The position numbers and the translations under genes are program-made. A DNA stretch of 64,000 bases. It comes from Nereocystis luetkeana (taxonomy: Eukaryota; Sar; Phaeophyceae; Laminariales; Laminariaceae). The notes beneath the pieces were generated by a model. It had not been told where the DNA came from, made no database searches, and was given only the letters and a program-made list of their open reading frames with translations. Positions 776 to 62,854 of this stretch are shown here, in pieces (within the stretch, counting starts at the first letter, position 1; each line of letters opens with the position of its first letter). The stretch is taken from positions 8,801,824 through 8,865,823 of the forward strand of contig JARUPZ010000026.1 of the NCBI GenBank assembly GCA_031213475.1, read 5' to 3'.

Positions 776-1404
776 CCAGTGTGAACACACCCAGAGACAG
801 CAATGGATTTACTATGTAACTGTCTCTTGTGTGCCACACCATAAACACTACCTGGTACGTGATACGATCATCAAAAAAAAAAGGTACCCTGGTTGTCTAG
901 CTCGAGTAGTGAGCGGAATGTTGTACAGTGTCTTTGCCAACCGACGCTAACCCAACCAATGCATAACATATATTTGCGGTAGGGTTGGGTGGGTATGATG
1001 CCATCAGTTTTAACATTAACTTCAGTACCACTCACGCGAGCAGTTCTTGGTTTGCCCCACTCATAAACGGACCCTAAACAGTCTAAAATATTAGTGCTGG
1101 CTCGCGAAGAGCGACCAAACCATTTCCATGGCGGTGCGTATCGGCTCAGCCACGAGGCCCAAAAGCGCGTACGTAGCACCGCAAGTATCCGACGCATCAT
1201 AGCCTCGGTAACATTCTAGCGAGTGGCTGACCAGTAGCCTCAACACCGAGGCGAGGCCTAAAAGGAAGCCACCCCCCTAGTGCAATCGTCTGCGTGGTAT
1301 ATAATATCCCCAAGAGGGGCTATGCGGAAGTTTCGCATCTCGTGAAAACCCCTGGACTGGGCACCATTCTGATAGTTCGACGTTTCTCGCTTGATGATCG
1401 AGAT
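776..1404. other. Intergenic, nothing recognised
   Basis: No supported gene or repeat. One TACCTGGTA at 849-857. A frame on the minus strand (871-1200) has no domain. Confidence 0.5.
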
Positions 1405-1745
1405 CTTTCAGGGCATTAAGGTTCCTCATCTGTATGATCTGCATGATGTGTGGTGTGTATGATTTAGCTCATGTTGCCGGGCGCGGACACCGCACACTCG
1501 TAGCCTGCCTGGTCTAAGGCCTGTTCCCGGAGATGGATCTGTACTACACAATTTTTGCACAGCGTCCCATAGCAGTAGGTTAGGGTCTTGATGATATAAA
1601 ATATCTACCTGATCTAGGTGATCTACTGTATTAAATAAATGGCATATCTACTTATGGTCTATCTGTACCAGGTATATGATATCCCTGTGGAATATCTATC
1701 TGTAGATGGTCCATCTGCAGATGATCTGTCTAACGTATGGAAAAG
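1405..1745 (+). repeat. GATC-rich dispersed repeat, copy 1
   Basis: GATCTGTATGATC-type steps, AGCTCATGTTGCCGGG, then runs of CTATCTGTAGAT. Contains TACCAGGTA at 1666-1674. Confidence 0.65.
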
Positions 1746-3721: not shown

Positions 3722-4067
3722 CCAAGGGTGGGGGCGGGGGCGTACTCATTTGCTGCTTACCATTATCGTTTGACCATTGACCACTCCTCCACTTCGAGAC
3801 GGAGCACCGTTCCTATTCCTAAGAAAGACACCTCCAACATTTGGGCTCTCATTACCCAGCGGCGGCGGCGGGGGGGGGGGGTGTACTCGATAGGAGATAT
3901 GTACTCGATCTCATGTATGGCCGTAGTCGTATGACCATAGACCCTCGCATCCCTACAATGCCGGGACGGAGCATGTCGGGTTTTCACCGACCAGGCAGAC
4001 ATTGCTTGCACCAAGGCGGGGGGGGGGGGGGGGGGTATACTTGATAGGAGAGATGTACTCGATCTCT

Positions 4068-6634: not shown

Positions 6635-6665
<31 letters not shown>

Positions 6666-6721
6666 ACCGCCGTGGCTGTTTCCACTGCTTCCGCCATTGT
6701 TTTTGCTGTTGTTGTTGTCGT

Positions 6722-6758
<37 letters not shown>

Positions 6759-23800: not shown

Positions 23801-26800
23801 GTATCCTAACGTCGGGCTGAATGTACGATCTGCACGATCTCTACGTTGACGATGATGATTGAGGATGTTCATCTTCCAGTGGAATGTTTACGACAACGGC
23901 CTTGCGCGCATCTTCGAGTGGGATATTTGTGCCAACGGTCTTGTCCATATGTTCGCCGCGTGGAATCTGTATGATAGGGGTGTTGCACAACGCAACACAA
24001 CAGCAAATGTAGGATCCTAGTTGATCTAGTCGATCTATACCTGGTAGGACCTATCTGATACCTGGTATGCAGTAGCTGATATATCTGATCTATCTGCAGA
24101 TTTTCTGTCAGAGATGTGCAAATGTTGGGTCCACCTTTTGGACGCCGTAAGAGTGCGAGCTGAATACTTTGCAGCAAGGAGTAGAAGGGTCCGCATGAAT
24201 CCCCCCCCTCCCCCCCCCCCTCCCTCCCTCCCTCCCTCCCTCCCTCCCTCCCTCCCTCCTTCCCAAACGAAGGTGCTGGTTTCCCTGCCTAGATCACGCT
24301 TCCCTTCTCATATCCTATGACGTCACGGTGACAGTCCCGTCCCCCAAGATCCAAGCGGCTTTCAACGGCAAGATGCTAGAAACCAACCCGATGCCGGACG
24401 AGGACGGTGTCAGGTGGACCCGCTACCGTTTTGCCACGGAGAGTCTGACGGCGGCTAGGGCGGTGGGACTGGCTGTTGGACGCTTCGCGGCGTGGGATGT
24501 ACCGCAGTCACCTCGTGTGAAAGGGCTTGTCCCGAGGGCTCCCAGTAACGGCAACAAGGTGGGCGGGTAGGGTGGTCAGCGGATTCGGATGAACGCAGGG
24601 TACAAGTGTACCGGTATAGCCTTGAGCACCTCGGGGTCAGTTTGCGGTAGCCGGCCTGTGAGCGTAGCGTGCAGCGGGGCAGAGCCAGCCCCACAGGGTC
24701 AAGGTGAGGTAGGTGAAGAAACGTTTGAAAATTATTGGGGTTCTGAGTGAGGTAACGGTAGCAAGGTGGCCGGGGGTGGGGTGGTAGGCTTACTTTATAT
24801 CCGTTCTGCTATTTTTTTTTTCTCTTATTTGTTTTCTTCTTGCCTTTCATTGTGTTCGCTCTTCTTTTCTCTCTCCCTCCTATTAATAATACTCGCAGCT
24901 CAGACTCGGGGTCACATAGCATGGTAGGCTTCCCCCTCCCACTACGGTTGTTGCCTTTCTTGTCATGGCGGAAAAATTTCAGCCACTTCTTCCCTCCTTG
25001 ACGCCCGTCTAATTTGTTCCCTATTACGGGGGACCATAGTTAATAGGACCTGTGGTATACATAAAAACCTATACATCTAGCCCTTTTTACTAACAATATT
25101 TGGTCCTATTAACTATGGTCCCCCGTAATAGTACTCTATGGCTTTTTGCTGAACCATGTTCATGAAAAACTACCAGGCTTGCTACAACTGTAGCGCTGGC
25201 GTTTTTTTCGCATGTTTACCACATCCCCCCCGACCCATTGAAGCTGTCATCTACTGTATACGCATGTCCGCCTCACGAGTGGTTCTTACTGTAGTAGGAT
25301 GCAGCTCACCCTTCATGCGACTCGCCGGACACCTTTCGGCGCTTCGGGCTTGGTGCAAGCAATGTCTGCCTGGTCGGTGAAAACCCGGCATGCTCCGTCC
25401 CGGCATTGTAGGGATGCGAGTCTATGGTCTTACGGCTTCGGCCATGCATGAGATCGAGTACATCTCTCCTATCGAGTACACACCCCCCCCCTAACTCTGA
25501 TATTTTATGATCGGCAAAAAACCAAGCATTACAGTATTACAGTATACCTCGTATACTCGTACCAGGTATAACACTTGGTATTTAATACTAATTTTGCTAT
25601 TTACATGCCCTTCAAAACGCCCATGATGGGCAAAAAGCATCGTGGATAACTTGCGCGTGGTATGCGCCTACTAATAGTGGGTAGGTGGGTGGGTGGGTGG
25701 GTGGATAGGTAGTTGGGTAGATCGGTGACTGACAGCACGAAAACGTGCACGGCGGCTCTGACACTCCTCCGCCAGGCTGGCTAGAGCGGGTAGAGCTGAT
25801 AGAGCTGCTAGAGCTGATAGAGCCGATAGAGCTGCCGCAGTTTTCATTTGACTGGTTTAATTTCTGGTTGAAAGAGGGCTACTGTGTGCATACGTCTAAG
25901 AAGTTTGGAGGGCTGGCTGCATGCACGTTTGGACAGGAGAACTTGAAGACGAACGAACGCATGAGAACTAAAAGCACGAATTTATCACGCCATTACCAAA
26001 ACCTTACCGTACACACCTAGATCGTGATATAGATTGTCAGGCAAGATACACCCTGATCTGTATGATCTGTACGATCTGTATGATCTAGCTCATGTTGCCG
26101 GGGGGGAACAGTATAACCTGCATTATCGACAGTAGGGCATGTTTCCCGGGCTGAATGCGTACTACACACATACCTGGTATTGCACAGCTTTCCCGGGCTG
26201 AATGCGTACTACACACATACCTGGTATTGCACAGCATCTCATAGCGGCAGCTTAGGATCTAGATGATTCATCTGTAGATCGTCTATCTGTAGATTTTCTA
26301 TCTGTAGATTGTCTATTTGTCCGACGTGCGAAGCTTAAGGCTTATATACCAAGCTACACCAAGACACGAGAAAAGGGATGACCGTGTTAAAACTTGTCAA
26401 GCGTGCCATGGGGTATTCGAGACACGGTGATACGCCGGCCTGTATGTTCCAACTGTCTCTCTGTATTTGTCTCTTAATATATGTCTGTCTGTCTGTCTGT
26501 CAGCCTGTCTGCGTGCTTCGTTGGTTTCTGTCTGCCTGGCTGCCTTCTCTCTGCTTAGCCAGTTTTCCGTATCGCTTATCTGTCCGTGTACCTGCTTGCC
26601 TGCCTGCCTGACTGCTTGGCGCTATACAACACCCTCCCTCTCTGCCTTCCCCGCCCGCCAAACCCATCACAGGCAGAAAATAGGCGAGCGATCGACAGCA
26701 GCCTCTCCGCCGCAGCTGGCGGCCTGCTCGCCCACGTGCCGGCAGCCATGTCATTCCTCGAAGAGTGGCTCAAGGCCGACTATCCCTTCAAGCGATGCAC

Positions 26801-28528
26801 TCTCGTCTTCGTCGAGGGCCTGCCTGACGTTTACGCACCCTTCGGCTCATTGTGCCTCGTCAAGGCGGAGCTGCTGTGCACGGCGGAGGACAGGTGAGGG
26901 TTACGAACGCAACGAGGGTTGTATAGGGTGGTGGCGGTTACGGGTGGGGTTGCGGGGTTGCTCGCACGGCGGGCCGTAGGGGTTGAGTGGTGGCATCTCG
27001 ATGCGTGCCGCGGTAGGGTTATTGTCTATGCTGGTGGTCTCGTATACTGTACTGGGATTCATAGTGTATGCTACTGTAAGTAGTATGTATCTCCTACCGG
27101 TAGTTTTGATGAGGTTAGGATACTCAATTGGTGCTTTACACTTGAACAGCTCTCTACTGTATGTGACGAAGCTACTTGAGCTGCTTGAGCCACTTGAGCT
27201 GACAGAAATATATATGGTGATGAGAGCAATCCCATGCCCTAGCTCTACAAAGGCATTCCTGATTGCCTTGTTAATGCATGCCTTATTGTACAAAGTGAAT
27301 GGCATACCAACGATAAGGTATGCCTTATCGCAGTCTTGAGGCATGTTTTGTTAGTTGGGTATACAACCAATCACACGAGTTCACCAGAACAACCATTCAA
27401 ATCAACCAACCAAAAAAACAACCAAAATCAACCAGTCAAATCGATTCAACCATGCGTTAGTGGTTATTAAGACCTATGCCAATGGTACAGCGAAGTTGCA
27501 ATAAAAAGTTTGAATTTCAAAGATACCCGCCAAAAAAATTCACGACACGCTTCCTATGGGCCACCTAAAAAAAAAAAGTTCCTAACTTTTGGAAAAGCCC
27601 AAAAAAAGCAAATCTGGGGCCGATGTTGGGCCAACATCGGCTTGAGAAAAACTCAGGCCGATCTTTGGTTCGAAGCGGCGAGATTCCGAGTCCTCGACAG
27701 ACATCGATCAACAAAACCAACGATTGCGTCATGAATTCTGAACGGAGTGCGCTCGTTAGGGGCTCCGACCCACCCTAGGGTCACCGTCTTCACACCATGG
27801 CCGGTGTCATGTGGCGGGAGCTGACCAGGCGTGTGATAAAAAAACATTTGGCCGCTGGTTTGCACAAAACCGAAGACAAAACTTCTCCATCCGTCTCGAA
27901 TGGCAAAAAATAGACTTTTTTTCAGGTTTGGGATATTTCCGTAGGACGTCGCCGGCAAGCTCTCGCCCCCTAGACCATGGATCCGCCTGATATCTTCGAG
28001 GCCGTAATCTATACTCGTTGGGCTTGCCAGATACCGAGTGGGTTGGCCGTGGGCTGAGTCTATGTCGAGATCGAGCGTCGATCGTCGCCCGAGCTGGTTT
28101 CGATCACCGTGTTGACAATTTGCGACCAGAAAAACACAAATTGCGCCGCCTGCAGCCGTTGGGGAAATTAAAAAAAAAAAAAAAAAAAACGTTTTCCTCT
28201 TTTTTTCCCACAGCGCCGGTGGTACGAGAAAATTTTCGGCTGTTTTTTTAAAGCCATACCAGTATATTTGAAAAAAAACTTTTGAACTTCGCGTTTCCAT
28301 TGGCATAGGTTTAAGGCATGCCTTATTGTAAAGTACCTGGTAGGAGTGATTTTCAAACGATAAGGCGTGCCTTAATGCTTAGGGTGTGAGTGGTGTGAGT
28401 GGCGTGAGTGGTGTGAGTCACAAATTACATTATTCACTTGACTGCAGTATGTACAGTATAGGCTCAGTAGTCAGAGTGATAACACTAACAATATTGATAG
28501 TATACTGACAATACTGTTAACAATGCTG

Positions 28529-28722: not shown

Positions 28723-31700
28723 GTAATACTCGTAAGAGTAATTTAATAATAATACAAATAATAATTCAAATAATAACAATAATATTAATGATATTAATAG
28801 TAATGGTGATAATAATAATAATTGTTATTATCATTATATTAATACTAAAAGTAATAATACTGTTACGGGGGACCATAGTTAATAGGACCAAATACAGTTA
28901 GTAAAAATGGTCAAATATATAGGTTTTAATGTATGCCATAGGTCCTATTAACTATGGCCCCCCGTAATAGTAATAATAACCTATTAATAGGGCTCACGTT
29001 TCGGGGGGAACACATTTTTTTTTATCTTTTTATTAAAAAAACGTGCTCAATGGGGAGCACCAGGGGGCACACCTACATGATGCAGTCATGTGAATAGTCT
29101 ATGCTCAAGCTTCTTTTACCCTTTGAGGAGTGCACTCCCTTTTTCGGCACAGACCACTCAACTCATAAGTACTTGTCCCCATCAACGGGACTGCAGTCCT
29201 AAAAAGGTCAAGAGGCGATGCTTCACGGCGACATAACAATACGCCGCGAGCCTTGATGGCCAAAATAGGAGATCATTAACTGCTGTCGCGTACTGTGTGT
29301 ATCTCACCGCTTGAATCTTCATTGAAGGATCCCTGATGGGGACGTGCCGGGAGACGCGAGACTGTCCGTGGTGGAATGCCTCCTCTATGGCTGGGTTTCC
29401 ACTGCGCTGAGGCTGGAGGGGGGCAAGCATCGCTGGCTGGTCCACGGCATCGCGGGGTACCTGTTGACCCAGTTTGCGGCGGAGCTGAGGGGGGAGGAGG
29501 AGAGGCAACACCGCTTGTGGTGTGCGGTTCAGAAGGCGGTGAGGCTCTGCGCTGTGCTGTGCTGTGCTGTGCTGTATGCTGGGTGCTGTAGTGCTGTGCT
29601 GTGGTATTGGTGTAGCGTATTCCGCCGCGCGGTACGCGGTACTGTCGTAGTTTTTCTTTCCCGGAAAATGTTTTTTTTTTTCTTCCGCCACGATTTCTGT
29701 TTTCAGTACCCACTTCGAAGTGTTACTTTTCCTGGAAAATGAAAGTGGCTGTGCTTTTTGTCGCCCCGGCCCCTCCTACGGTACTCCTATTCAACAGGTG
29801 GCTCTGGACTGCGAGCTCGGCTGCCCCTCCGTGTCCCCGCCGACACCCGACCTCTACATCCTCGATGCCATCGATCCGGCGACGGCCTATTACTCGAGGC
29901 TCAAGGCCGGTCTCATCCTCCACATGATCGAGGTCAAGCTGCAGCCTGCGGACCTGCAGGACTCGCTGGGCCAGCTCATGCGCCCGATCGCGCTGCACGT
30001 GAGGGAGGAAGACGTCAACCTTAGGTGAGCGGGTGTGCTAGCAGACGTGGAGGATACATAGCGCGTCTTGTTGTTTTTTAGCCTCACAAATTTTGTGTTG
30101 TTGCTCTTCTGTTTTTTTTTGTAGTATATATGTGATGGTGTACACGATGTGGATACCATGCCCTATCCCCCAGATCGTACCGCCTCGTTGCCACTATAGT
30201 TCTTCAAGGACATCCTGGCTCCTCCGAGGCACCCTGAGATTCCCTCTTTTAATAGGTTTATAGTTGCTGACCGCCGAGAAGTGTCGTGACGCCACACAAG
30301 CTACCTCGCTGTTTTAGTCCACTCCCACATCATAGGAAGAGATAACTTGCTGGGGGACTACCGTCCCACATATAGATAGATCTTCTTATTTTGGTTCATT
30401 TTGACGGCAGCGTTGTTGCAGTTGTGACTACCACTTGATTTTGGTAGCAGTCTGATCGGGCTTGCGCGTGTGAGGGAGTGATGCATCACTGCCAGGTGCG
30501 TGGAGACTGGCGCAGACAGAGCGAACCTTTACCGTTTTTGTTGTGCATGTGGCCAACGGTGGCCGAGAAGAGATGAAGAAAAAAACGACCTACACTCCTT
30601 CCCAGTGTCAAAAATGAAAAACAGACCAGGGCGTTGGGGTTTGTGCACCAATCTGACGAAAAAAGAGTTTGCTTTCATGTTCGTAGTTTACTTGGTTTTA
30701 ACATACCTCCCGCTGTCTGGGTCTCGCAGATGGATGGTGGGGTTTCGGAAAAGTTTCGGTTTTTTCCGTGGGCCCCTGATATATCATACCTGGTATGAAT
30801 TGCAGGTATAAATTTTCACATAAGCCGGTCGCCCCGGTGGTTCAAGTGGTTAACCTCGAATTCTACTTGTTTGAGTCCTGGGTTCGAGCCCCAGGTGGGT
30901 CGGACTTTGACTTTATTTACAAAAATAAAAATAAAAAAGGATTCAATTGTTGAGAGCGCCTTGCAGCGTGGGTAGGCACAATTCGATGCGAGTCGAGGAG
31001 GGAAGAAAGGCTGAAATCTTCTCGCGATAAAAATGAAGGCACGTACCGTAGCGGGAAGGGGGGAGAAGAGCCTGCTAGGTGACCCCGGATCTGAGTTACG
31101 AGTTGGAAGGAGAGAGAGAAGAAGATGTGCGAAGATAATGAATGGGATGAGCAAAAAAACAAATAAAAAGTAGTATGATTTTTTTCGTTTTTTCAGTTAT
31201 TACTGTGATTCAGAATTCTGATTTTGTTTATCACCGGGAGGGACATACCAAGAGTATGTTGTATCACGTTTAGCTTCTGATCGCGCTTTCCGCGAGGGGG
31301 GAAGGTCTCAACCTCAGGTATTACGGGGGGCCATAGTAAATAGGACCAAATATTGTTAGTAAAAAAAGGTAAATATACAGGTTTTTGTGTTTATCGTAGT
31401 CCTATTTACTATGTTCCTCCGTAGCTGACCTTTTGGGGGGGGGAGAGCTGACCGGAACAACAACTCGCAAGCGGCGGACGTCTTCCTTCTCTGTAACGAG
31501 GCAACCAACCGCGTTTTGCTTGTCAGGATTTTCCCCTCCACTCAACCCCAACCAACCGCCGAGTCCAACCCTTACGGTATGCCCACCACAACACCAATCT
31601 GGCCCCTAGCCGAATCCTACGCTATCTCCATCCCCGACTCTACCCTACCGCCAACCCTACCGCCAGTTCTACCGCCAAACCTGGCACTCCATCTTTATTC

Positions 31701-32418: not shown

Positions 32419-35400
32419 GCTGCTGTTGTTGTGTGTGTTTTTTTTTCTGCGTGGGTGTTCTGGGTGTTCTTGATGTTGTGTTTAGTGTGTTAGTCTCGTA
32501 TTGTGCTTTGTTTTTCTGTGGTGTTGATTTTGTGTGTTGTGTTCTGTGTTGGTTTACTTTGTCGCCCTTCTTGGCCGGGGGGGGGGGTGTTTCATTCCGT
32601 ATGCTGTTTGTTATGCTTACCAGCTGGTGCGAGCCGTGCACCCGCCTTTTATGACGTGTACACGGGTGCATACCGTTTTCAATGAGTGCTTTGTTTCGTG
32701 CTGATTACTTTTCGTTTCGCTATCGTTTTGGGTCGTTTGGGCTCCGTTTTGTTTTGTTTCGGTGTCGTGTTTGTGTCGTTTCGGCTCCGTTTTGTTTGGG
32801 TGCATTTCGTTTCATTTCGTTTCATTTCGGTGCATTTCGTTTCGATTCGTTTCGTGTCGCTTCGTCCGATTTCTGTCGTTTCTCTTCGCTTCGCTTCCTC
32901 CCGCTTCGTTTTTCTCTCTTCTCTTCTCTTCGTTTCGTTCTGTTTGTTTTTGTTTTACTTTGTTCCATTTTTTTCTTGTTTCATGTTCGTTTCCTTCTCG
33001 TTTCGCTTCGCTTCGCTTCGTTTCGCGTCATGGTTTGCACCTTTCGTTTTTCCGTATCGTTTTCTTTTTGCTCGTTTTTCGCAGCTGGTGCGAACGGTGG
33101 CGGCTAGGGGGGGGCACGACCTTGGTAAGGACCTCACGGAGGCGTTTTACCAGCAGTGGGTTACGGGGCAGTGTCTACCCTACCTCAGGTATGGACGCGA
33201 TTAGGCAGTAAGGTATAGTGTCTTTTACTGCTGCCCTGCACATACACTTGGGCGGGACTCTCTTTCCAACGAATATGATATGCCCCCCGCAACGGAACTG
33301 CTGTGGTAAGTACTGTCGGGTTACGGTGAATCGGGAATCAAATCAAGAGTTGCAGACTATCTGCGTGGTTTCTTCTGAGGCTCTTCGCGGTTAGTCGCCA
33401 GTGGGCCACGGGACAATGTCGATCGTACACTACGGTAGTACGGGGGGCCATAGTAAATACCTGGTAGGACTTACGGTACACACAAAAGCCTATACATACA
33501 TCTATTTTCACCCAAATATTTGGTCCTATTTACCATGTCCCCTCGTAAGGCCTAAGCCGTGGACAGGATGAACCGTTATGGTGCATGGTGGCTCGGGAAC
33601 CATACCCTGAGTGGTAGATTGTTCAGTGGTTTCTTGCGAGGCGCTTCGTGATTTGTCGGCAGTGGCCACGTGACTTTGTATACTACACTACTGGGCGTGG
33701 GGCATGAACAGAATTAGGGTCTAAGGCCGATAAGGTGAATCGGGATCCAGATGAAGAGGTACCTGGTACATGGGCGATTCAGTGTTTTTTCGTGGTGCAT
33801 TTCGAATCAAGATTTCTGTAAGCTCGTCTGATGAGGCACTTGAAACAAATGATTGGGAGCTAGGCTTATGAGGCATGCCAAATCAAGAATTGTCAGCTGA
33901 TCCGTTGTTTCGTGTGGGGCATCTAACGTGTTTGACCTGTGGGTCACGGGACTATAGTCTACCCCGCCTAAGGCATGGGCAGGGTTATGATGAGTCGGGG
34001 ACTTGGGGGTTATCGTTGACTGATCGGCCAGTCGATGGTGTGTTGGGTGTTCGGAGTCATTTCATGTTTTTGTCCGCAGTGCCTCGAGGTACCTCTATCG
34101 TACAAAGCACGCGCCAATAGCCAACAGCCTATAGGCAATAGCATATCGGGGGACCATTATTAATAGGACCAAATATTGTTAGTGAAAGTGCCGAAATATA
34201 TGGGCTTTTGTCTGTACCGTAGGTCCTATTTAATATGGTCCCCCGTAATAGTACGGTATCACACTAGGGTGATAAGATAGCACACCCCCTGGGACGAGTT
34301 TCAGAACCGATTTCCTCCGATACATGCCTTAAGGCCACTTCGTATGCAGTCGGATTTGCAGTCAGTTGGAAATGGTGCTATCGGCACGTTCGCACGAGCT
34401 TTTGCCCCGAAAATGTGCGAAACTGTTGTTTCTCGCCTCAGAACGACTTGGACTTTTCTCCAGGACCCATCGAGAGGTGTTTCCCGTTTCTCCATGTGCC
34501 CAGTTGCAGGAAATCACCTCCGGTACTTGTCCGATCCAACTGGGTCAAATACGATTACAACCCCCGATTGGATCGGAAAAAACGTTTTTTCCGATCCGAT
34601 CCCTGATCGTAATCGTATTTGACCCAGATGGATCGGAAAAGTACCGAAGGTGATTTCCTGCAACTGGGCGCATGGAGAAGCGGGAAACACCTCTAGATGG
34701 GTCTTGGATAAAAGTCCAAGTCGTTCTGAGGCGAGAAACAGCAGTTTCGCACATTTTCGGGGCAAAAGCTCGTGCGAACGTGCTGATCGCACCATTTCCA
34801 ACTGACTGCAAATCCGACTGCATAAGAAGTGGCCTAAGGGGGGGGGGCTATTAGTAATGGCACACACAACGAAATTACGGTGGCGTTTGAAATGTCTACA
34901 CCTCTGACACGCGATCGGTTCCCAGTTCATGAACTACAGCAGTACACGGATCAAAGCAGATCAGTTCCCGATCGTGTTCGGCCTCAAACCATCTTGCCGG
35001 GTGGGGCCGGTATATTCTGCTTGATCTGGAACATGTTTTCTTGTTCGGATTTGTGCTACGCAGATAAAGTGGACCCTTGCACAACCTCTCACGATGGGAG
35101 GTGAAAAACTAGATAAGATTATATATCTGTAGAGGATCTATCTGTAGATGGTGATCTATCTGATCTGTCCTGCGGCAGGTATTCAAATTTCTCGTCGAGA
35201 TCTTTCCGTTGACGCTTTCCTCGGCACGGTCGGCGTTTGCACTCTCCCCGTTTTCGAGAAAGCCTGCTATACTCTACAGTCTACACTCTACAGTCTCAGT
35301 GACATTAGGCCGGGGGGTTGTGTTATATTATCACCCGTGTTTTCTATACGGTGTGTTATCTTATCACCCGTGTTTTTATACGGTGTGTTATCTTATCACC

Positions 35401-38400
35401 CGTGTTTTTTTTACGGTGGGTTATCTCATGAACCGTGTTTTATATACGGTGTGCTATCTTATCACCCGTGTTTTATATACGGTATGCTTTCTTATCACCC
35501 ATGTGATACGGTGAGTATTGCTATCGCCCGTGCGATACGGTTAGAGTATGCTTACATAGTATAGAAACGTGAATAGTGATACAGGAGACCCGATTGTAAC
35601 ATACTATAAATACGAAGAGTGGCGATGTTAACACAGGAACGCCAATGGCAATAGTGGCATTATTTTTTAGTGACCCTGCTATATGACATCGATGATTAGT
35701 GGCAGTAGGCATAGCATTACGAACTATATAGCCAATGCTAGCACCGGTAGCCGATAGGCAGTACGGAATAATACCGATAATATATACCAGGTAGAAGTTT
35801 CACCAAAACTAATATTGTTACTCCAATAGTAGCACATTTCCTCTTACAAGAGTCACTGGCTGGATAGTAGCACGGTGACGCTAATAGTAACAACGGTACT
35901 ACTGTGCTGTACGATTTGTCAGATGGAAAAGGAAATACTATTAATAGTAGAGTAACATTGTAAGTCTAATGATAGCACGTAAACGTTAAATGATGTTTGA
36001 TTACGTATGTTCAAAAAGGGGGTACTGATTTGGAACATTGAAGCTGAGCTCTACTTCAACCGAGATGGGGGGAAAGACCAGAAGAATAGTGGTAGCATAC
36101 ATACGTGGTATCAGGAGAGGAAAAAGCTCAAATATATATGTTTGTAGACCGCAGTAAGACAATTGATGATGTGGGAGGAATCTGCACAAAATGGCGGGCA
36201 TTCCAACGTAGTGAAGTTGAGACTATCAATGAAAACATCGAACGCCAAATATATCACGCATTGTAACACCACTAGTGACGTAGAACGCCACTTGTCACGT
36301 AGAAACCCCAATGATAGTACTGGTAGTAACATTGTAACTGTAGCAACAAGAGTATCACACTAATGTCGTTGCCAGTACTACCAGTAGCATGGTAGCATCA
36401 ACTTTGTCGCCAAATAGTATATTAGCCGTTGTAACAGGAACGCCAACAGTGAAGTAGTAATGCCAACATCAACATAGAAACCCGAATGTAGCACCTGCAG
36501 CAATCCAGTGTCAGTAGGAAGTAGTGACAGAAACGCCAATCGTAGTATCCTACCAGTACGTGGTAACATAGTGATAGGAACACGAAGAGCAGGTGTTGCA
36601 TGTTGAATATCGTGTCGGAACTTTGGATCTATCGAGATATGGAACTGGCGGTGCATCGAATGTATCGGACGTGTTTTCCCCCTCCATCCCCTCGCACCCC
36701 CGTGTTTTGTATGCCGACACTAAACGAAAGCTTCCATGATGCATCCCAGATCGAAATCTTATCGGTTACGATCGTATTTTTTCTAGCTTACCGGCATCGT
36801 ATCGTATCGGACTCTATTTGAAAAACGGTATCCGATGCCCTACGCTACATTTGCGAAGGATTTGGCTGGGCTGGGTCTGGGTTTTTCGCAGCCTGTTTCC
36901 ATGGCAATGCTGCAATAGCAATCCCCACCCAGAATTAAGTGCTGTGGGGAAAACGTGATGAAAGGTGCTATTAGTGGGTTTTGGGGGCTCGGAGGGTTGG
37001 TTAGCAAACGGAGCTACTTCTGATCCGCATGCTTGAGGATGAATCAGCTCCGCAGGTTTGTCGGTTTCCAATGTTTTGAAAACCCAACCAGATCGGACGA
37101 TCGGGTTTCCAATGTTTTGAAAAGCCAACCAGATCGGACGATCGCAAACACCCTATTGATACTACCAGGATCACCTCGTTTATCAGCGAATCAGCTCCTC
37201 ACCGATTCGTTTTCTCCGGCTTGAAATATTTTTATAGCCCAACCAAGTTGGACTATCGCGAAGCACCCTATTGGTCTATTGGTAGTACCGGCACTGACGG
37301 TTGTAACGGCCAGTCGCTATGTTTGTCTGCCGCATCATACATACATGCTTGCGTGAAAACGTGCAGGGTCGGGTATCACTATAAGAAGAAGGCCAACGTC
37401 ATCAACCTCGTCGTCGAACAGGTGAGGGCTAGAGTTATTTTACAGGAAGACCGTGTAGTCGAACTTGACCGTTCGTTGGATCCTGACCCGTTGGCTGGGT
37501 CTTGATGGTTTCGTTGGATCTCGACCGTTCGTTGGATCTAAACCCGTTGGTTGGATGTTGACCCGTTGGTTGGGCCTTGACCTGTTGGTTCGATCTTGAC
37601 CTGTTGGTTCGATCTTGACCGTTAGTTAGATCTTGTCCGTTCTTTGGATCTTGACCGTTTGCTGTATCTTGGACACTCTACAGTTGGGCCGTTGCGTCTA
37701 AAAGTAGGGCACTTAAAATCCTTTCCCCACTTCAATATATTTCGGACTCTAACTCTAATTATAAGCAGTGTGAGCCGAAAATGTAACCACAGTTCCAACC
37801 AAGGAGTTCCGGCAGGGGGGGTCACGATTTAAGATATACGTATCGGTTTAAGATAGTAACTGGTTTCATTCTTTTAGGATTGCAGCCCCGTTTTGGGGAC
37901 AAATCAGTCAATTTCCAAGTACTTTGCCCCCAAAACGGGACTGCACTCCTGAAAGGGTTAAGATAGCTCCAAGGCCGAACACAGGCGTACTACAACCTAT
38001 GTATTGCATGTTGCCGCCTAAAGAAATTTCGGGTTCACCCTGCCTCAGAGACACAAAACGACCGTTACAAGGGAGCATCACAGCGGTGGCTACTGCGTGG
38101 CGGGGGGGTGATACAAATTGGCGTCCGAAGTACACTGCAGGGAACCGTAAGGCGTACGGCACGAACGACGACAAGGTCCTACCTACGCGTACTGCTCTAC
38201 GATGCCCGTGCCACGCACTGCTGGGCGGTGACGCTGCTCGTAGACCGTTGGTATCCCCGCAAAGTTCTCGTTGGTTTGGCCGCTATACTATAGCCAAGTC
38301 CTAAGTTTGGCCGCTATATATCCAGTACCCATATACCCAGTACCTATATATCCAGCACCTACATATACTGTAGTGCAAGTATGTGCCACGGCAGGGGTTA

Positions 38401-40032
38401 AGCCGTTTAGAACTGCAGTCTCATTTTGGGGGACAATCCACTCAAATTTAAAGTAGTTTGTCCCCAAATCGGGACTGCGGTCCTAAAAGGGTTGAGCCGT
38501 TTATGTTAGGAGCGCACTCCCTTTCCGGAGACAAATGGCTCACTGATAGTATTCATGTTTGGCTGACATGTTTGCTTCTATGCGTTTGCATCTCTTTTTT
38601 GCTTTGATTTTCGCAGTGTCACGACACGTACCCTGGTGGTTGTTAGTAGTATCCCTCTATTACGGGGGACCGTAGTTAATAGGACCTATGTTATACATAA
38701 AAACCTATATATTTAACCATTTTTACTAACAATATTTGGTCCTATTAACTATGGTCCCCCTTAATAGGATAAATTATCACGACGGATACTTGATAGTTGG
38801 ATGGAAATAACGGTTTTTTGTGAAGACAACACAAATATTTATATGTAAATGTAAATGTATATGTACCCAATGGTGTAGAAGGGTTGAGTGTCACCTCTTG
38901 CTTAAGGCAGGACAACTTGAGAGCGAAAAAATGACGACAAAAAAGATGTCGATTACATCATCGGCTACTGCTGGGCTTGGCTGATGGCACTTGTATACTT
39001 CGAATTACTGTAAGTATATGGAATACCAGGTATCTCTTACGGGGGACCATAGCAAACAAGATCAAATATTGTTAGTCAAAATTGCGAAATACATACCAGG
39101 TAGGTTTTTGTGTGTGCCTTAGGTCCTATTTAATATGCCCCCCCCGCAATACTGTGGATGCAATAAATTCAATGCAGGGGTCTGTAAGGCACGGGCTCAG
39201 TATGATGTACCTGGTACATACATAAATGGTATATGTGTGGTGTTGTATATCGTATTACATGCGTAAGAAACGGTTCCTCGATAAATGGTATATGTGTGGT
39301 GTTGTATATCGCATTACATGCGTAAGAAACGGTTACTCGTAGTACGTCGCGTCCGTAGCATACATCGAGTCTCCCGAGCCCACCGACACTACCTACCCGC
39401 ATACTCCCTCGGACCTCCGCATCCCATCGTCGTGAACAAACAGTCCCTATCGATAAATGCCGAAACTGAAAACATATATTTTTTTCCCCCTGTGCTGTAC
39501 GTACTTGGCTGTGCTTGGTATCGGTGCAAACGTACTGTGCCGCGCAGCCTATGTAGTGGCATTTGACTGAGCTTGTTGAGTTTGGTGGTGCGTGAGTTAG
39601 CGAGGGGGGGGGGTGTACTCCTTGCTCCGCATGGTCCTACTGTAGTAATAGGACGCGAATGGACGAGGGAAGAACGTGCTGTGAAGTTCTCCCAAAATAA
39701 GCCTGCTTCGTTACCTCGGGTATGGAGTTGCGACGACATAGGGAGGAAGCAGGAGAAATAATACCTGATATTGAAAGTAGGGAAGGGGGTGAGAAAAAAA
39801 AAAAAGAGAGAGAGGGAATATGCGGGGTATATCTGTGAGGTTTTCGTCCCCCTCAAAACCCGTACCTGGTAGTTAGCAAGATCGAAGCGTATCCCACGCA
39901 GCCTGCAAAGATGAGTTTCCACAAAAATCATCGATCTCACAGATTTCGCTTTTTTTTGTTTAGCATTATATGAAATGGCCGTAGGAGTGGCGGAGGGCGG
40001 TGGTTCGCTTCTTCAATAATCTGATTGTTGTG

Positions 40033-46100: not shown

Positions 46101-48942
46101 GGAGCTGCTTGGTCGGTTTGAGCCTTTTAGGACTGCAGTCCCGTTTTGAGGACAACTACTCATAATTCGACTGGTTTGTCCCCAAAACGGGCCTGCAGTA
46201 CGACAAGCCTTGAGACAAGTACCTGGTACCTGTCACTGTTTTAAATACTTAGGGCAACTACCTTGGCACGGGTGTACTGAAATGTAGCAGTAGATATTTC
46301 CCAGTCCGGTTTCGGTATAAGAGAAGACGGACCTAACCCTCTTGAGATTTCAGAGCGGGGAAATTGATAATATAAAGTGACCATGTCAGCGATATTATGG
46401 TGGAAGGGATGGCGATAGTGACGGAGACTGTGCAAATCGGGGATGGTACATAATGGTTGAATGCAAGGGGCTGTACGGCACCGGAAGCAAGCAAGCAACG
46501 TGATCCTACCCGTGCTCCCTTGTAGACAGTTGCTAACACCAAATGTGTCATTGCTCTGGTCGCTATCTCAGGATGCCCAATGGCTCGACCCTGTAGAACG
46601 GCCTGAGGTCCCGTATTGGGGACAAACCCATCAAATTCCACGTAGTTTTTGCCGAGTTCGGGCCTGCAGTCCTAAACGCGGTAAGAGCAGGCAGACACCC
46701 CTCTCTTGACCCGCGACGATGGGCAAGGTTGACAGGGCTCAGATAGTCGGCACCGGAAAATAAATCAACCCATTGAAGCTGCCATCCATATATGCAAGTC
46801 CGCCTCAAAAGCGGTTTTCAGGAGGATGCAGCTCACCCTTCATGCGACTCGCCAGACACCTCGCGGCGCTTCGCGCTTGGTGCAAGTAATGTCTGCCTGG
46901 TCGGTGAAAACCCGACATGCTCCGTCCCGGCATTGCAGGGATGCGAGGGTCTATGGTCATACGACTACGGCCATACATGAGATCGAGTGCATATCTCCTA
47001 CCAGGTATCGAGTACACCGCCCTCCTCACTTCCCGGCCCCAACCCCTTCCCCCCCCCCTCCCCGCTCTACCCCCTCCCCCTTTTTCACCCCCCCCCCCCC
47101 CCCCCCCCCTCCGCGCATCCCTCCCATCCCCCCTCCATTCCCGGAAACCCAGCCCGCTTCTGCAGCCACTAGGAACTCCAGCCCCGTCCCCTCGTTTGTG
47201 CCCAACGCTAACAACATGGGGGCTGGGGGAGGTCCCGCCTCTGGCCCTGCGTCATCTGGTGGTGGAGGCGTTGGCGAGGGGGGCGCGGGGGGAGGGGCGT
47301 CTATGGTGTCGGGGGGTGGAGGTGGGGGTGGTGGGAAGGGGGTGGGTGGAGGGGTGGGGGAAGAGGAGGAGGAGGAAGAGGTTGATCCGGAGCGGCAGGC
47401 AATGTTTCAGGCGCAGGATGCTAATATGTGTCCGGTGCTGTGGGTCAAGGTGAGGGAGAAGAGAGGCAAGGGGGACTAGGCGTCATTGGGCTTCGGGGAA
47501 GGCAGCAGAACCGAGGTGGGGGTGGGAGGGCGGGTATACTCATGTGGTGCATGGTCGTAGTAGTATGGCAATAGACCCTCGCACCCCTACAATGCCAGGA
47601 CGGAGCACGCCGGGTTTTCACCGGCCAGGCAGGCGTTTCTTGCACCCAGCGCGAAGCGCCGCGAGGTTGTTCGGGGAGTCACATGAAGGGGTAGCTGCAT
47701 TCTGCTAAGATCAGCTTTTGAGGCGGACTTTTCTTGCATGTGGATGAGCTGCATCCTCTGCCAAGAACCGCTTGTGGGGCGGGATTTACTGCATGTGGAT
47801 GACAGCGTCGCCTTCAGAGGGCTGGGGGTGTAGTCAATTGGTTGATTGCCTTACCGGTCATTCGGCCATCGACCCCGCACCTCCTTCGCGATGGAGCGCC
47901 GATCCTGATCCACCTCCCAACATTTGGGCGCTCTTTACGTACTTTTCCTCGTGTGTTACATAAACTTCTTCGGGGTAGTAAAATATGACTATTACGGGGG
48001 ACCGTAGTAAATAGGACCAAATATTGTTAGTAAAAATGGGTAAATATGTAGTTTTTTGCGTGTACCGTAGGTCCTATTAACTATGGCCCCCCGTAATAGG
48101 GTATCGGTATCGGCCACACTACTTCACTATCAGTAGACGGCATGGGGAGACTATATATGCTACTGTGATAGGCGATAGGATACAGGGGATGCTTGGGTAC
48201 GGTAGTGCCAGGAGCTGTTCGACAGATCACCTACAGATAGCTCATGAACTATATGATGTAGATTTTCTAGTTTCTCACCTGCCGTTGCGATAGAGAGGTT
48301 GTTCAGCATCTGCATAGCACACATCCAACCCGGGGAACATGCGCTAGATCGTGCAGACTGAGCGGCTGAGCCAGATCACACCACACAGGTCATGGTCCAC
48401 CCGAGCGTCTTATTCATACGGTGGACCACGAAGCTGGAATCGATGAAATGCCCGAGGTGTTCGAACTACTCCTATGTACGACGCAAGAAACAAAATAAAA
48501 GTTGAGCACCCGCAAAACAATGAAACAAGGACAGCATGTACCCCCCCTCCTTCTATGGTCATACCACTACGGCCGTGCATGATATCGAGTCCCCCCCCCC
48601 CCCATACCACGTAGTGTGTGTATTACAAGGCACCCACAAGACAGTAACATAGTTGACCCATTGCTGTCTCCGGAAGTGGCCACATCAGAAAATAATTCAA
48701 TTCATTGGCGCTGTCATTCGTATGCAAGAAAGTCCGTCTCTAAAGCGGCTCTTAGTACGATGCAGCTCACCTTTCATGCGACTCGCCCAACTCACGGCGC
48801 TTCGTGCTTGGTGTAAGCAATGTCTGCCTGGTCGATGAAAACCCGACGCGCTCCGTCCCGGCATGGTGGGGATGGCCATACGCCTACGGCCATTGCATGA
48901 TAATGAGTAACCCCCCCCCCCCCCCCCACCTTCCCCCCGCCG

Positions 48943-48980
<38 letters not shown>

Positions 48981-51900
48981 AAAAAATCAAAAAAAATCAT
49001 AGCATTCGCTCCCCCTCATCGCATGAACTATTTAACGAACAACCCGACCCCGCTGTAATTTTTGGCGGCAGGTCGACCCCCAACTAGAGTGGGTGATGAG
49101 CGTGAGGATGAGAAAGCCATGGCACCAGTGGGTGGAGCAACTCTTCAGCGACGAGAGCGTCGAGGCGCAGGTAGGCATCTTTCTCACCACGTCTTATCAA
49201 TCTGACAGGGAAAAAACAAATCGACGTGGCTGTAGTGAAGTGTACTGTACACGAGGTTATCGGTTGGCTGTGTGGTGGTTGGCTTGAAGTACGGAGGGTG
49301 TCGCGAGGTGAAAACGGAGGAACGCGGCAGGCGTTCTTTCTTCGCGCCAGCTATTAACAGTCGTGCGTAGCCAACCGGGAGAAGGAACGAGCAACTAAAA
49401 CAAGGAGCTGTTGAAAACGAAAGAACCAAAAAAAGCAGACGCAGGGCAGGTGACACCGATCTGCCCAATCGAGTTTATGAATGGTCCCATGTAAGGGATT
49501 TTACTTGATTGTGGTATGGGGGGGAGGTTGACTTGGTTTTAATAGAGAGGGCAAAAGCGACCAATGAAAAATTACGGTTACAGCATCGACCAAACGTCAT
49601 AAGGCCTATGTTAGGTACCTGGTATATAGTGCGGGAAAACTGTTTTTTTTTATTGCATACTCCGGTACTCGAAAAACACGGTTTCGTCAAGATGATGTAT
49701 AACCCCCCTTCTTGTTGCCATTGCCTCGTGCTATGTTGTTTGGTCAATTATCGGCTCGTGGGCCGTCGACTGGCTGGTTGTTTCGCTAGTGCTACGCTTT
49801 AGGGGGCTTGGCCGAGCGTCCGAAGTCAGCACCTCGGAGCTCATCGTGGTTTTCCTGTGGTTGTGGCTTTCGTGTATATAAATATATATATACTTTTTTA
49901 CAAGGCTGAGCTCCGCGGGTGACGGTATACGCTGCCCGCTGCGCTCGTTTAAAGAAGCAGGTAGATCAGTAGAACAAAGTGTGGAGCAGACCGGGTAGAG
50001 GACGCTCGTGACTTGGCGCGATGGGCGACGTGCGAAATGCCAAGCGATCGGCGATGCAGGGAGAAACAATCTGCCGGGCCCATACATCGTAAAAGAAAAA
50101 AGGAAACCATGAAGAACGAACGCCATTTGCGATCAAAAATCTTTCCTAATCGGCATAGCAGAACTCGAGGATCGATCCCGAGAAAAAGAGGTTTCCCGTC
50201 GGCCTAGGGGCGGGGGGAATATGCCGTGATAGGGTGCCCTCCGAAGTACGATTGTCGTATGAATACGTTTTGTACACGAACGACCTCGGGCTTGCTGGCA
50301 ATGCTCGAAAGGGGCGACTGCCACGGGCCGAAACCTACTCATAGCTTGGTGCTCCACTGGTTGTGGCAGTCAGCCTTTATGGTCACGGGGCAAGGCGGGG
50401 GGGCTGGCACGCTTTGGATCGCGAGACCGTGTTGACAGACAGGCAGGCAGGCAGGCAGACAGACAGACAGACAGACAGACAAGCAGACAGTCAGACCGGC
50501 AGCATTGAATAGTAAGGATATATGAGCGTGTTGTTTGTTTCGTTTTTCAGGCTCCAACCACGGCTGAAAACAATTATCATGCCCTCCTTGCTTCAATTTT
50601 CCTCGCCGACCGGTCGCTCGATCGGTGTGTTGGCCGGTGTGTTGGTCGGTATGTTGGTCGGTTGTTTCAGTGCGACGCTTTGAGGGGACTGGTCGAGCTC
50701 CCGCTGCCCTTCGAGGTGAGAGGCTCGGAGCTCCCTGTTCAGGCCATCGCGGAAGCTGTGAGAGGGAGGATCGCGCACACACAGATGGAGCACGCCTCCT
50801 GCGTCCGCAAAGAGGTTAGTCTTACCACACTATAAGGGGGGGGCATAGTTAATAGGACCTATGGTACACACAAAAACCTATATATTTCGCGATTTTTACT
50901 AATACTATTTGGTCCTATTTACTATGGTCCCCCGTAATATTAATAGTTTTGCCATACTATTATCAAGTTACTATTCATAAGTTAGTACAGGTATTGGGAC
51001 CCACGTAGAATGTCTGTACCAGGTAGCGACTTTTCGTTTTTTTTAACGTATGGGCTGCTGGTGTTGGAATGGTTTTTGTTTCCAGTACCCTCGGCACTGT
51101 TGTGGCAAAAAAGTTGGTTAGGATGAGGGTTGAGGATCTTCACGGGTTGGGCCAGGAAGTTTGAAATATCACGGGTCGGGTCGGGTCGGGTCGGGCACCC
51201 ACCCTTGCACGGCCCGACCCGACCGGACCCGACCCGCGAGGTTTGACCCGACCCTCGAACAGCCTTGCTACAAGTTATATTCGATGTTCGTCATGTTACG
51301 GGCGGATGTAGCGTTGCCATTAATGTTAATACTGTAGGTTCTGATTTTGGCAGCAACCAAACAATGTCGGGTCCCCAATCGAGTTGCCCGAAGCACCCGC
51401 CGTCATGGTCCCGGTGCGAAATTTGCTACCGCGCGAGTTCCTACTGCATTATGGGGGAATATGTGTATGCACCTGGTATAGCAATACGGGGGACCACAGT
51501 AAATAGCACCAAATATTGTTAGACCACAGTAAATAGCACCAAATATTGTTAGTAAAACTATCGAAATATATAGACTTTTGTATAGGCCGTAGGTTCTTTT
51601 GAATATGGTCCCCCGTAATGGTAATATGAAGATACTGGTGTCCCTGATGGCTTGGTCGGTTGTCCGCGTAACCGACTGATATCAAATTCTTGGGTTCGAG
51701 TCTCACCGAGTGCATATTCGCAGGGACTTTTCCTTGCGTAAACATTGAGTAGCGGAAAACGCGAGAGCGTGAGTTAGGAACATTCGATGAAAATCGACGG
51801 GCAGTGGAATTGCCGAACCCTTCGCTCGAAGAAAATGAATGCCCGCATCGTTGGGGGGAAGAAGCGACGAAGGACACCTGAGACCACGGCTTGCCCAGAC

Positions 51901-57619: not shown

Positions 57620-60600
57620 AATATCGTTGATGTCGCCTTTTCCTTTGCTGTTGTTGCCGTACCGTTGCCGTACCGTTGGTGTTGGTGTTGCTGTTGCTGT
57701 TCTTGTGGTCGCTGCTGTTATTTTTACCGCTGGCCAGATCTGGGCGGCGGCAAACATGCGCGCTCGAGACGGCTGCACGCCGTTGGAATCTCTGGAACTC
57801 CTTGTTACGCTCTTGAGAGAAAACGACAATTGCGAAAACTCTCTCAGCGACGACTACTACGTGGCGCAGGTGATGCCCCCCGCCCCCCTCCCCCCGCCCC
57901 CCTCCCCTTCGTTCATCGCCCACCTCTCGCGCTCCTCCGTTCACCCTCTCCCCCCCCACCCGTTCCTGCTGCCTCACTCCTTCACTTCACCGCTCCCACC
58001 ACTCCACCCGCCCCCTCCAATACCCCGCTGGTCTACAGCACTGGCTATTATTTATAGTTGAAGTATACTATACCTGGTACCCTGGTCTGTGTTAATAATA
58101 CGGGGGACCATAGTTAGTAGAACCAAATGCTGTTTGTAAAAAAGGTAAATAGATAGTTTTTTTTGTGTATACCTTATGTCCTACCAGGTATTTACTATGG
58201 TCCCCCGTAATAGTATAATATGCATTCATATTATGTGTTAATAGTATGCATTAATACGCTCGTACTACTCTATTATTGTAGTATAATACTGGTATGTATT
58301 AATAGCATGTACTGATGGTATGGTAGTCACTACTGGCTGGTGGATCTTAGTCACTGTCGTCGACTGTGTGCGCTGATCAAAGGTCACAGGTCAAAGACCC
58401 GGGGGGTCTATTTGGTTCGTGTTAGCCCCTTTAGTTACGATAGCCTGTGTAACTCTTTGGTAACTACAGTCCCGTCTAAGGGACACACCATACAAATACC
58501 AAGTGATTTATCCCCAATTGTCCCCAATTTGGGACTGCGGTCCTAAAAGGGTCAATACGGCATTCCTGTGGTGGGAACATTCGTCATTAAGAGACTGGTT
58601 GCTTGAAATTATACTCAGGTTTGCAGATACTCTAGTAATACCAATATTAATACAGAAAATTGCACAGTAGAGCAGCAGAAAAAGGCCTAAACGTCGCGGA
58701 TCTCCTGTTTCACACTTGGGATAGGGCTTACGGCCTTACTGTAGTTGCGATAGGATCTACGGCGTTACACCATATATCTGGTATGGGATCTCCGGCTTCA
58801 GATCTCCGGCTTCAGATTGTGTAAAGGATTTCCGCCTTCATCATCTCATTGTACGGGATCTCCGGCTCCGCATTTTCAATGTATACGTTGATCTCCGGCT
58901 TCAGATGTTCTAGAGGAATTCCGGCTTCATTTTTTATTCACTGTAGGGATCTCCGGCTTCAGGTTGTGTATAGGATCTCCGGCTCCATTCAGAGTTTGTA
59001 CAGTATCTCCGGGTTCATATTTTGCACAACATCCTCGGCTTGAGATTTTGTACAGGATACCCGGCTGCACATATTGGTGTTGGTATATAATTTCTTGCTT
59101 TCCTGCAGGATCTCCGGCTTCTCATTTTCTGTAGGATCTTCGGCTCCAGATGTTCTGCAGGAACTCCGGCTTCACATTTTCTACAGCGTGTACGGCTTCA
59201 GATTTTCCATGGGCTTTCCGGGCTTCAGAATATCTGTTACACAGGACCTTCGGCTTTACAGTTTTCGATGGGATTTTGGTCTCCATCCAGTTCGAAAGGT
59301 TCCACCATCATCTCAAATGGTACTATTACGGGGGGGCATAGTTAACAGGGCCAAATATTGTTAGTAAAAATGGTTAAACATATAGGTTTTTATGTGTACC
59401 ATAGGTCCTGTTAACTATGGTCCCCCGTAATACTGGTAGTCCGGTGTACCTGGTATTGCGGGGGACCATAGTTAATAGGACCTATGGTATACTTAAAAAA
59501 GCTATATATTTGACCATTTTTACGAACATTTTTCGGTCCTATTAACAATGGTAATAGGTGGTCTTGCAAGTTATAAATGTGGGGGGAGGGTATGGAGGGT
59601 ATGCATGATTGTTGAGCAAGCTGTGCGCCTCGAACAAACAGTGGGCAGTAACGCCATGCCAATACGGTGTTTGCGAGAACCCAACCCAATGTTGTTGGGT
59701 TACAAACGTGGCTGAAACCGACAAACACGAGAAGCTTGGTTGGGTTCTCGAAAACACTCGAAACCGACTACGAAATGAGGAGGTGATTGGTTAAACATGC
59801 CAATCAGAAGTTGTTCCGCTTGCTAACCAACCCACAAAGTTACCCCGCTCAAAAACAGTTGAGTTCAAAAACATTTTGCTCACTTCGTCCCACAGCAATT
59901 ATCGTTTTGTGGGTTGGGATTGCTATTAGCATGTACCTGGTAGGGAACAGACTACGATAAACCCAACACAAGAAAGTCTTCCCAAACGCCCTAATAATGA
60001 AACATTAGCCTAAATCAGCCGCAGACGTACTGTCAGTAGGGTTGTATTCAGTCGTTGCCTGCAATGCATTAGCTCTTTGCTGTGCATCAAGCGTGTTGGT
60101 GTGTGCTGTATTGGCTGTATGAGGTGCATGTACACGTCATGCACTGCTCAATTTCTCGAGCAAATGCTGTCCATTTTTTTGTGTTGCTTGCAGTACTGTA
60201 GGTGCCTGCGCCGGTTTCGCTTGGAAATCATCACAATCCTCATCACCACACAGCACCACACCACACCACAAAATACCACGCCGCAAAATACCATACCACA
60301 TACCGTATTATGCCATGTCATACTATACTATACGATACCATACTATGCCATACCTTACCATACTGTGCCATGCCGTATCATACCATGCCATACGCTACCC
60401 TACCCTACCCTACCCTACTATACCCCATACAATACAATTACCATAACATTACCATACCCCACCACACCACCTCACACCATACCATACCACACCACACCAC
60501 GCCACGTCAGTGCCATGCCTAATGCCGTTCCGCACCTACCATCTAACGGTCTGTGGCGGTTGCTGCCTTTTTCCTGCCCCCCACTGGCGTCACTTGATTT

Positions 60601-62845: not shown

Positions 62846-62854
62846 GTGAGACGA

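Follow-up and report, generated by a model that had tools for sequence, protein, structure and literature searches.

Among the transposons most comparable to the element proposed here, Tc1/mariner members are described as generating overhangs of two or three bases, and the footprint of Sleeping Beauty is given as C(A/T)GTA (PMC3878927). ZB leaves footprints of 0-3 nt, with 2-4 given for its group, and uses an AT-rich palindromic target, ATATATAT (PMC7913693); the pogo element Passer leaves 0-4 nt at a TA within the palindromic target AAGTACTT (PMC9976928). In assays, the footprints of Ppmar2 and Osmar5 are varied and span 1-4 nt (PMC9632168), and the scars inferred for Stowaway elements of the Triticeae retain 1-4 bp of each end, as in TACTCC...AGTA, such that a total of more than four bases is possible (PMC1925063). 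Here we describe a nine-letter word, TACC(A/T)GGTA (hereafter TACCWGGTA), in a 64,000-nt stretch of the genome of the brown alga Nereocystis luetkeana (the window; contig JARUPZ010000026.1, C26:8801824-8865823, in an assembly of 465,085,209 bases). This word is very probably a scar left by the excision of a cut-and-paste DNA transposon for which TA serves as the insertion site and is duplicated, and its focal occurrence was most likely left by a mobile element departing from a TA site.

At positions 46999-47007, the window reads TACCAGGTA, embedded in CTCCTACCAGGTATCGAGTAC, within a copy of a 260-bp dispersed repeat designated R260. Another copy, at 25227-25490, has CTCCTATCGAGTAC instead, which confirms the claim of the initial annotation that the two differ by CCAGG plus one extra TA. 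Because TACCAGGTA is the reverse complement of TACCTGGTA, the two forms constitute one word. This word occurs 36 times in the window, compared with a mean of 0.53 and a maximum of 4 in 100 dinucleotide shuffles, and it ranks first in number among the 361 TA-N5-TA words present; the runner-up, TACAAGATA, occurs 13 times, 12 of them inside a single tandem array. All ten positions that had been named as examples appear in this list. Throughout the genome, 182,395 copies are found versus 1,744 for a control in which the pattern is read backwards, corresponding to one per 2.5 kb on average, and twenty 10-kb stretches taken at round coordinates contain 46 copies, somewhat below the genome average. 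The predicted excess over other words of this form is therefore borne out at both scales. For finer comparisons we used a 358-kb set, representing 0.08% of the genome, that comprises the window, the twenty stretches, and R260 loci L002-L030, and in which R260 is consequently over-represented. Distinct flanks surround 90 of the 113 copies of the word in this set. The features that define the focal site are as follows, with scars (taken from the list of TACCWGGTA words of the window) given strand '.' here and below.

46999..47007 (.), focal scar TACCAGGTA in R260, from the word and the empty-copy comparison
46765..47030 (+), R260 copy bearing the focal scar, the stretch used as genome query
25227..25490 (+), empty-site R260 copy, CTCCTATCGAGTAC, from sequence and flank search
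3873..3932 (-), empty-site copy of the R260 end, matching the joined flanks of 46999 at 95% identity

When the flanks of the focal scar were joined and searched against the window, empty copies were recovered at 3932-3873 on the minus strand (95% over 60 nt), 25431-25496, 4066-4027 (minus), and 63889-63826 (minus). The same 7-bp gain is present at 33458, 39094, and 58182, which lie in copies of a second repeat resembling a miniature inverted-repeat transposable element (MITE) and had gone unmentioned in the initial annotation. In a broader scan, every TA-Nk-TA place of the window (k from 1 to 12) was collapsed to TA and the window searched for a matching copy. Such a copy exists for 56 of 3,959 places, among them four TACCWGGTA (33458, 39094, 46999, and 58182), one TACTGTA (25287), and one TACCAGTA (23484), with the remaining 50 being simple or tandem repeats as judged by eye. 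An unbiased scan, in which all repeats in about 359 kb (the 358-kb set plus locus L051) were compared and insertions of 3-14 bp with clean flanks were taken, yielded 1,180 insertions, 60 of which duplicate TA. CCWGG is the commonest of these TA-duplicating gains (nine, plus one double), followed by single C/G (eight), CG (five), CAG (four), and TTAA (three). The alignment of repeat copies that had been proposed as a check thus does reveal empty TA sites, in paralogous copies within the same genome. The change from TA to TA-N5-TA relative to these empty copies is the insertion with TA duplication that is characteristic of the IS630-Tc1-mariner/pogo group, although the inserting element itself is unseen. 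PIF/Harbinger elements, to which the Tourist MITEs belong, duplicate a 3-bp TWA, whereas the unit duplicated in these empty-site pairs is TA.

The distribution of scars within the two repeats indicates that particular TAs are favored. Using the stretch 46765..47030 (+) as query, at least 48 R260 matches were scored genome-wide. The TA at position 235 of R260 is scarred in 4 of 57 alignments, versus none of 824 for the 11 other TAs (Fisher 1.6e-5). In a set of 49 copies with alignments of 200 nt or more, each of the four scarred copies, three carrying the A form and one the T form, is nearest to unscarred copies rather than to another scarred one. The MITE-like repeat is abundant and about 105 bp long, and it lies between TAs with TTACGGGGGACCATAG as its inverted ends; it gives 91 BLAST hits, and 55 copies could be aligned over at least 90 nt in the 358-kb set. 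Four of its copies are scarred at position 94, three with A in the reference orientation (one double) and one with T (L034:5755, by alignment strand), and two at position 68, one with A and one with T (L025:3070, with extra bases beside the scar). Scars in different repeat copies look like separate evolutionary events at preferred TAs.

33458..33466 (.), scar TACCTGGTA in a MITE-like copy, with empty copies, for example, at 34250-34196 (-) and 14657-14608 (-)
58182..58190 (.), scar TACCAGGTA in a MITE-like copy, at the same MITE position as 33458, with empty copies, for example, at 52439-52392 (-) and 34206-34253
39094..39102 (.), scar TACCAGGTA at a second position of the MITE-like repeat, with an empty copy at 50920-50839 (-)
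14541-14660, 25014-25133, 28853-28972, 57007-57126, 59316-59435, and others in the window, MITE-like copies

The start of a MITE-like copy is also found in each of three tandem copies of a 203-bp unit (99-100% identical) at 51817-52425.

Counting TAs at a distance of exactly 7 bp from the TA of a scar gives 25 in the window, versus 6.8 expected. A target profile built from 86 de-duplicated sites of the 113 in the 358-kb set shows TA at positions +-7 in 42 versus 13.1 expected (binomial p 1e-11), at +-2 in 43 versus 12.6 (p 8e-13), and at +-4 in 31 versus 12.5 (p 3e-6). The half-site profile preceding the central TA reads T-A-A-T-A-T-A, with T at -1 nearly excluded (0.03), so that the target is symmetric and AT-rich, approximately TAATATA-TA-TATATTA. 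An AT-rich palindromic target around TA is likewise a trait of the IS630-Tc1-mariner/pogo group. Five of six comparison words tested (TACAGTA, TACGAGTA, TACAGCAGTA, TACCGTA, and TACGATA) show no TA excess at +-7. The scar unit has the same length as this +-7 spacing, so a scar would itself form a good new target. Among the first 100 genome places listed, which cover the first 276 kb of contig C1, there are eight tandem scar pairs, and 16 of the 100 scars have a neighboring scar, versus 1.5% predicted by an even spread over TAs. Three of the eight pairs combine an A form with a T form and thus are not slippage copies. Further tandem arrangements are found among the remaining scars of the window.

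13334..13349 (.), two scars with a common TA (TACCTGGTACCTGGTA), then TACCTGGCA, read as a decayed third
19698..19706 (.), scar, then tandem TACCAGGTG, read as a decayed second copy
19126..19134 (.), scar opening a tandem repeat of the GACTAGTC type
19235..19243 (.), scar within the GACTAGTC tandem repeat
19269..19277 (.), scar within the GACTAGTC tandem repeat, changing GACTAGTC to GACTACCAGGTAGTC
19289..19297 (.), scar within the GACTAGTC tandem repeat
19308..19316 (.), T-form scar within the GACTAGTC tandem repeat
849..857 (.), scar, TA at -7 and +7
1666..1674 (.), scar
9256..9264 (.), scar
11222..11230 (.), scar
18426..18434 (.), scar adjoining the variant TACCCTGGTA
21501..21509 (.), scar
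24038..24046 (.), scar
24059..24067 (.), scar, TA at -7 and +7
25560..25568 (.), scar
26171..26179 (.), scar, duplicated with its surroundings 47 bp on
26218..26226 (.), scar, the duplicate of 26171
28334..28342 (.), scar
30787..30795 (.), scar
33760..33768 (.), scar
35785..35793 (.), scar
39024..39032 (.), scar at the edge of a MITE-like copy, from the word list and MITE alignment
39208..39216 (.), scar
39863..39871 (.), scar
46220..46228 (.), scar
49616..49624 (.), scar
51017..51025 (.), scar
58071..58079 (.), scar
59447..59455 (.), scar at the edge of a MITE-like copy, from the word list and MITE alignment
59934..59942 (.), scar

Besides CCWGG, the minor forms CCGG, CCAG, and CCATGG are observed. 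The words TACCGGTA and TACCAGTA occur 18 and 34 times, compared with 4.9 and 8.5 expected from a first-order model, and both lean toward the target of the scar, with TA at +-7 in 6 versus 2.4 and 10 versus 4.6, respectively. Reading of the sequence contexts places CCGG and CCATGG gains at TAs that are also hit by CCWGG, namely in L013 and L039 (both at MITE position 68) and in L020 (at the site of L044). The initial annotation had supposed that a middle mismatch is repaired to A or T, and the presence of both forms at the same TA in different copies fits this idea, as does the occurrence of CCGG and CCATGG; a footprint of terminal bases with a repaired central mismatch would be consistent with all of these products, the ends of the element being unseen. 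The variants would be accommodated by a self-pairing CCAGG overhang whose A-A mismatch is converted to A or T, lost, or kept as both bases. Shorter gains at the same R260 TA, comprising CG (L018), G (L021), and CC (L006), may be further trimmed products. Words that differ from the scar by a single mismatch number 129 versus 64.9 expected, beside the 113 exact copies, and this excess indicates that scars decay.

The word excess and the exact TA-duplicating gain relative to paralogous empty copies together support the original suggestion that these are scars of a TA-targeting transposon. From these data we infer the transposon itself, a 5-nt stagger, an annealing step, and a build-up by non-replicative hopping. 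Insertion at a TA within an AT-rich symmetric target would duplicate the TA, as reflected in the duplicated TA and the target bias observed. Upon excision, a staggered cut by the transposase would leave five terminal bases (CCAGG or its complement) on both flanks, as suggested by the constant five-base insert. The 5-nt overhangs might then anneal as CC.GG with one central A-A or T-T mismatch and be ligated, and the mismatch would be converted to A or T; more rarely it may be lost (CCGG), one base trimmed (CCAG), or both middle bases kept (CCATGG), these being presumptive origins for products that are seen. The new TA-N5-TA scar, with TA at +-7, might itself be a favored target, such that scars pile up in tandem; this is the putative cause of the tandem excess observed in the 276-kb stretch. 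The scars are compatible with an element end of either CCAGG or CCTGG.

Several observations weigh against this interpretation. The query used to retrieve loci L002-L030 itself bears the scar, and since such a query favors scarred copies, the R260 fraction and p value given above are biased toward this site and are too favorable. One additional R260 scar, L015:2516, was excluded from the test, the reference having no TA where it aligns, and scars at a shared site could in part have been inherited with the repeat copy. With regard to the target, the sixth comparison word, TACCATA, has some TA excess at +-7 (11 versus 5.9), and TACCAGTA exhibits a stronger and unexplained TA peak at +-8 (13 versus 4.1). 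Moreover, the dominant 5-nt scar exceeds the 0-4 nt reported for the superfamily in the assays cited (PMC7913693, PMC9976928, PMC9632168). The 0-4 nt footprint is a usual property and not a strict definition, however, as the scars inferred for Stowaway can exceed four bases in total (PMC1925063).

The search for a source adds to these points. The initial annotation had envisaged intact elements beginning with CCAGG or CCTGG and a linked transposase. No convincing inverted pair with such ends was found in the window or the 358-kb set, and no transposase was tied to the scar. Two small palindromes, L008:2935 (28 bp, ends CCAGGTTA) and L032:388 (49 bp), are unproven as elements. The latter (L032:388-440, CCAGGTACTACAGCAG...) is perfectly palindromic over 49 bp and has TA on its flanks; its 20-base end word, TACCAGGTACTACAGCAGTA, gives 538 genome hits with at most two mismatches. 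It was rejected as a proven source because the end word is carried by a repeat, of which L051 (600 bases, two hits) holds neighboring copies, one with a double scar. Half-ends, in which TACCWGG is present without the following TA, reveal no end family by eye beyond satellite and R260 copies. Of the Pfam models applied to the genome, DDE_3 matched none of 30 scored candidates, with its control positive in 3 of 14, and Transposase_1 likewise gave no match, its control being silent. DDE_1 gives 28 matches among 48 genome candidates, several in open frames of 300-540 aa (controls silent), with the best at C1:8320630-8321181 and C35:5112140-5112694. These matches indicate that pogo-type transposases are present in the genome, but no link of any of the 28 to the CCWGG scar was shown. 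No significant family was detected in the 14 of 51 window open reading frames of at least 150 aa that were scanned with Pfam, Rfam and tRNA scans of the window gave no match, and neither did short-pattern scans of viral contigs and genome contigs. A full-text literature search with the bare word TACCTGGTA gave, among the matches listed, titles that appeared unrelated.

Selection, rather than insertion, might have kept or created the word as a functional motif for protein binding or chromatin, which would account for a near-palindrome of such frequency and for its absence from long open frames: none of 82 scars falls in open frames of at least 250 aa, which hold 5.7% of TAs. Frames of at least 200 aa (15.8% of TAs) contain 7 of the 82, and frames of at least 150 aa (32.2%) contain 19. 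We regard a functional motif as very unlikely, however, as the gain in repeat copies is exactly 7 bp and duplicates the TA, the word decays (129 single-mismatch neighbors versus 64.9), tandem scars differ in A/T, and the TA at +-7, outside the word, is left unexplained by a binding site. Passive spread inside a few dispersed repeats with the word in their consensus is comparably improbable. One repeat does appear to carry an embedded scar, that with the 538 hits of TACCAGGTACTACAGCAGTA (at most two mismatches), but this number is small against 182,395; furthermore, flanks are distinct in 90 of 113 copies, and the few scarred R260 and MITE-like copies have unscarred nearest relatives.

The coexistence of more than 1e5 scars with the lack of a convincing source in about 358 kb might instead point to programmed or very efficient excision of short TA-bounded elements that leaves no element visible. 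The internal eliminated sequences of ciliates, which are removed in this manner, have TA boundaries. We assign this only a slim chance, given that there is no sign here of a second, uncut genome, that scars in different repeat copies look like separate evolutionary events, and that ordinary non-replicative hopping over a long period accounts for the ratio. The least probable explanation in our estimation is that replication slippage or filler DNA at TA built the CCWGG plus TA units. Although 7-bp tandem units occur, as do other short TA-duplicating gains, slippage copies neighboring sequence, and in neither R260 nor the MITE-like repeat does CCWGG adjoin the empty TA. The mixed A/T tandems (three of eight pairs) are not copies of each other, and the identical five bases recur at unrelated sites.

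Other words in the 358-kb set also exceed expectation. TATTAATA is present in 58 copies (52 with distinct flanks) versus 1.65 expected, a 31-fold excess; its own target is TAC-TA-GTA, with TA at +-3 in 33 versus 10, and it occurs in the window at 3674-3681, 7366-7373, 63561-63568, and elsewhere. Three TA-duplicating TTAA gains with empty copies (L026:1286, L037:811, and window 3674) were identified, and the word has the appearance of a second scar family, one whose insert is a palindrome of 4 nt. TACAGTA/TACTGTA, the 3-nt scar of the Sleeping Beauty type, is found 112 times (104 with distinct flanks) versus 47.9, an excess of about 2-fold, with four TA-duplicating gains (window 25287-25293 and 25252, L016:1976, and L030:1394) and a preference for C before TA; this excess may represent another family. 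A third scar family is possibly represented by TACGAGTA/TACTCGTA, with 48 copies (47 with distinct flanks) versus 12 expected and TA at +-6 in 21 versus 9.8. Excesses of TACAGCAGTA and TACAGTAGTA were set aside as apparent TAC/CAG trinucleotide runs, judged by eye. Elsewhere in the window, the minus strand of 4805-8137 contains a 1,110-aa open frame rich in Gln/Ala/Pro runs, whose C-terminal Cys/His motif resembles EsV-1-7 repeats by eye; comparison of this frame with Pfam PF19114 gave an E value of only 4.5, which is not significant. A tandem array with an 11-bp unit, TAGACTATTCA, occupies 62810-63151.

If TACCWGGTA is indeed an excision scar, then each jump would be non-replicative and leave a permanent 7-bp mark, such that about 180,000 scars could accumulate with few elements. 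Each mark is of frame-shifting length, and one occurs on average every 2.5 kb. Whereas cut-and-paste transposons are usually counted by their remaining copies, here it is departures that could be counted, from marks numbering about 182,000. The sequence by itself would then allow jump rate, target choice, mismatch-repair bias, and the fidelity of end joining to be measured. A stagger of 5 nt would extend the range known for TA-specific transposases, and the attraction of new insertions by scars would constitute a simple feedback, nothing like which we met in the portions of the literature searched. We consider the odds to be roughly even for the larger proposal that a TA-targeting transposase whose stagger is fixed at 5 nt, longer than the 0-4 nt assayed for its superfamily, has acted more than 100,000 times in one eukaryotic genome. 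Under this proposal, the self-complementary CC.GG ends would give a single dominant scar, which would in turn be a preferred target, and the genome would preserve its non-replicative jumps as a readable log, with one entry per about 2.5 kb and the elements themselves rare.

Because the element and its transposase are unseen, we classify the scar as one that works like those of the IS630-Tc1-mariner/pogo group rather than as the product of a proven member. With Sleeping Beauty and Tc1 it shares the TA target and its duplication as well as an AT-rich palindromic target, and its putative origin, from terminal bases that remain between two TAs and meet in a single A/T mismatch at the center, would be alike too. 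It is also extremely abundant. It differs in that the scar has five bases instead of two to four, and hence not the 3-nt (or 2-nt) overhang of Sleeping Beauty/Tc1 proper, in that the target reaches to TA at +-7, and in that neither an element nor a DDE_3 match was found here. Pogo-type (DDE_1) elements such as Passer have in common with it a TA target within a palindromic consensus, and DDE_1 matches are present in this genome, whereas the scar here is longer and a single product dominates. Osmar5, Ppmar2, and Stowaway resemble it in the duplication of TA, and they leave scars of terminal bases (PMC9632168, PMC1925063), as proposed here. The footprints of the plant mariner-like elements in assays are varied, and those inferred for Stowaway can exceed four bases in total, whereas the scar here is dominated by a single symmetric product of 5 nt, probably owing to the ability of CC.GG ends to pair.

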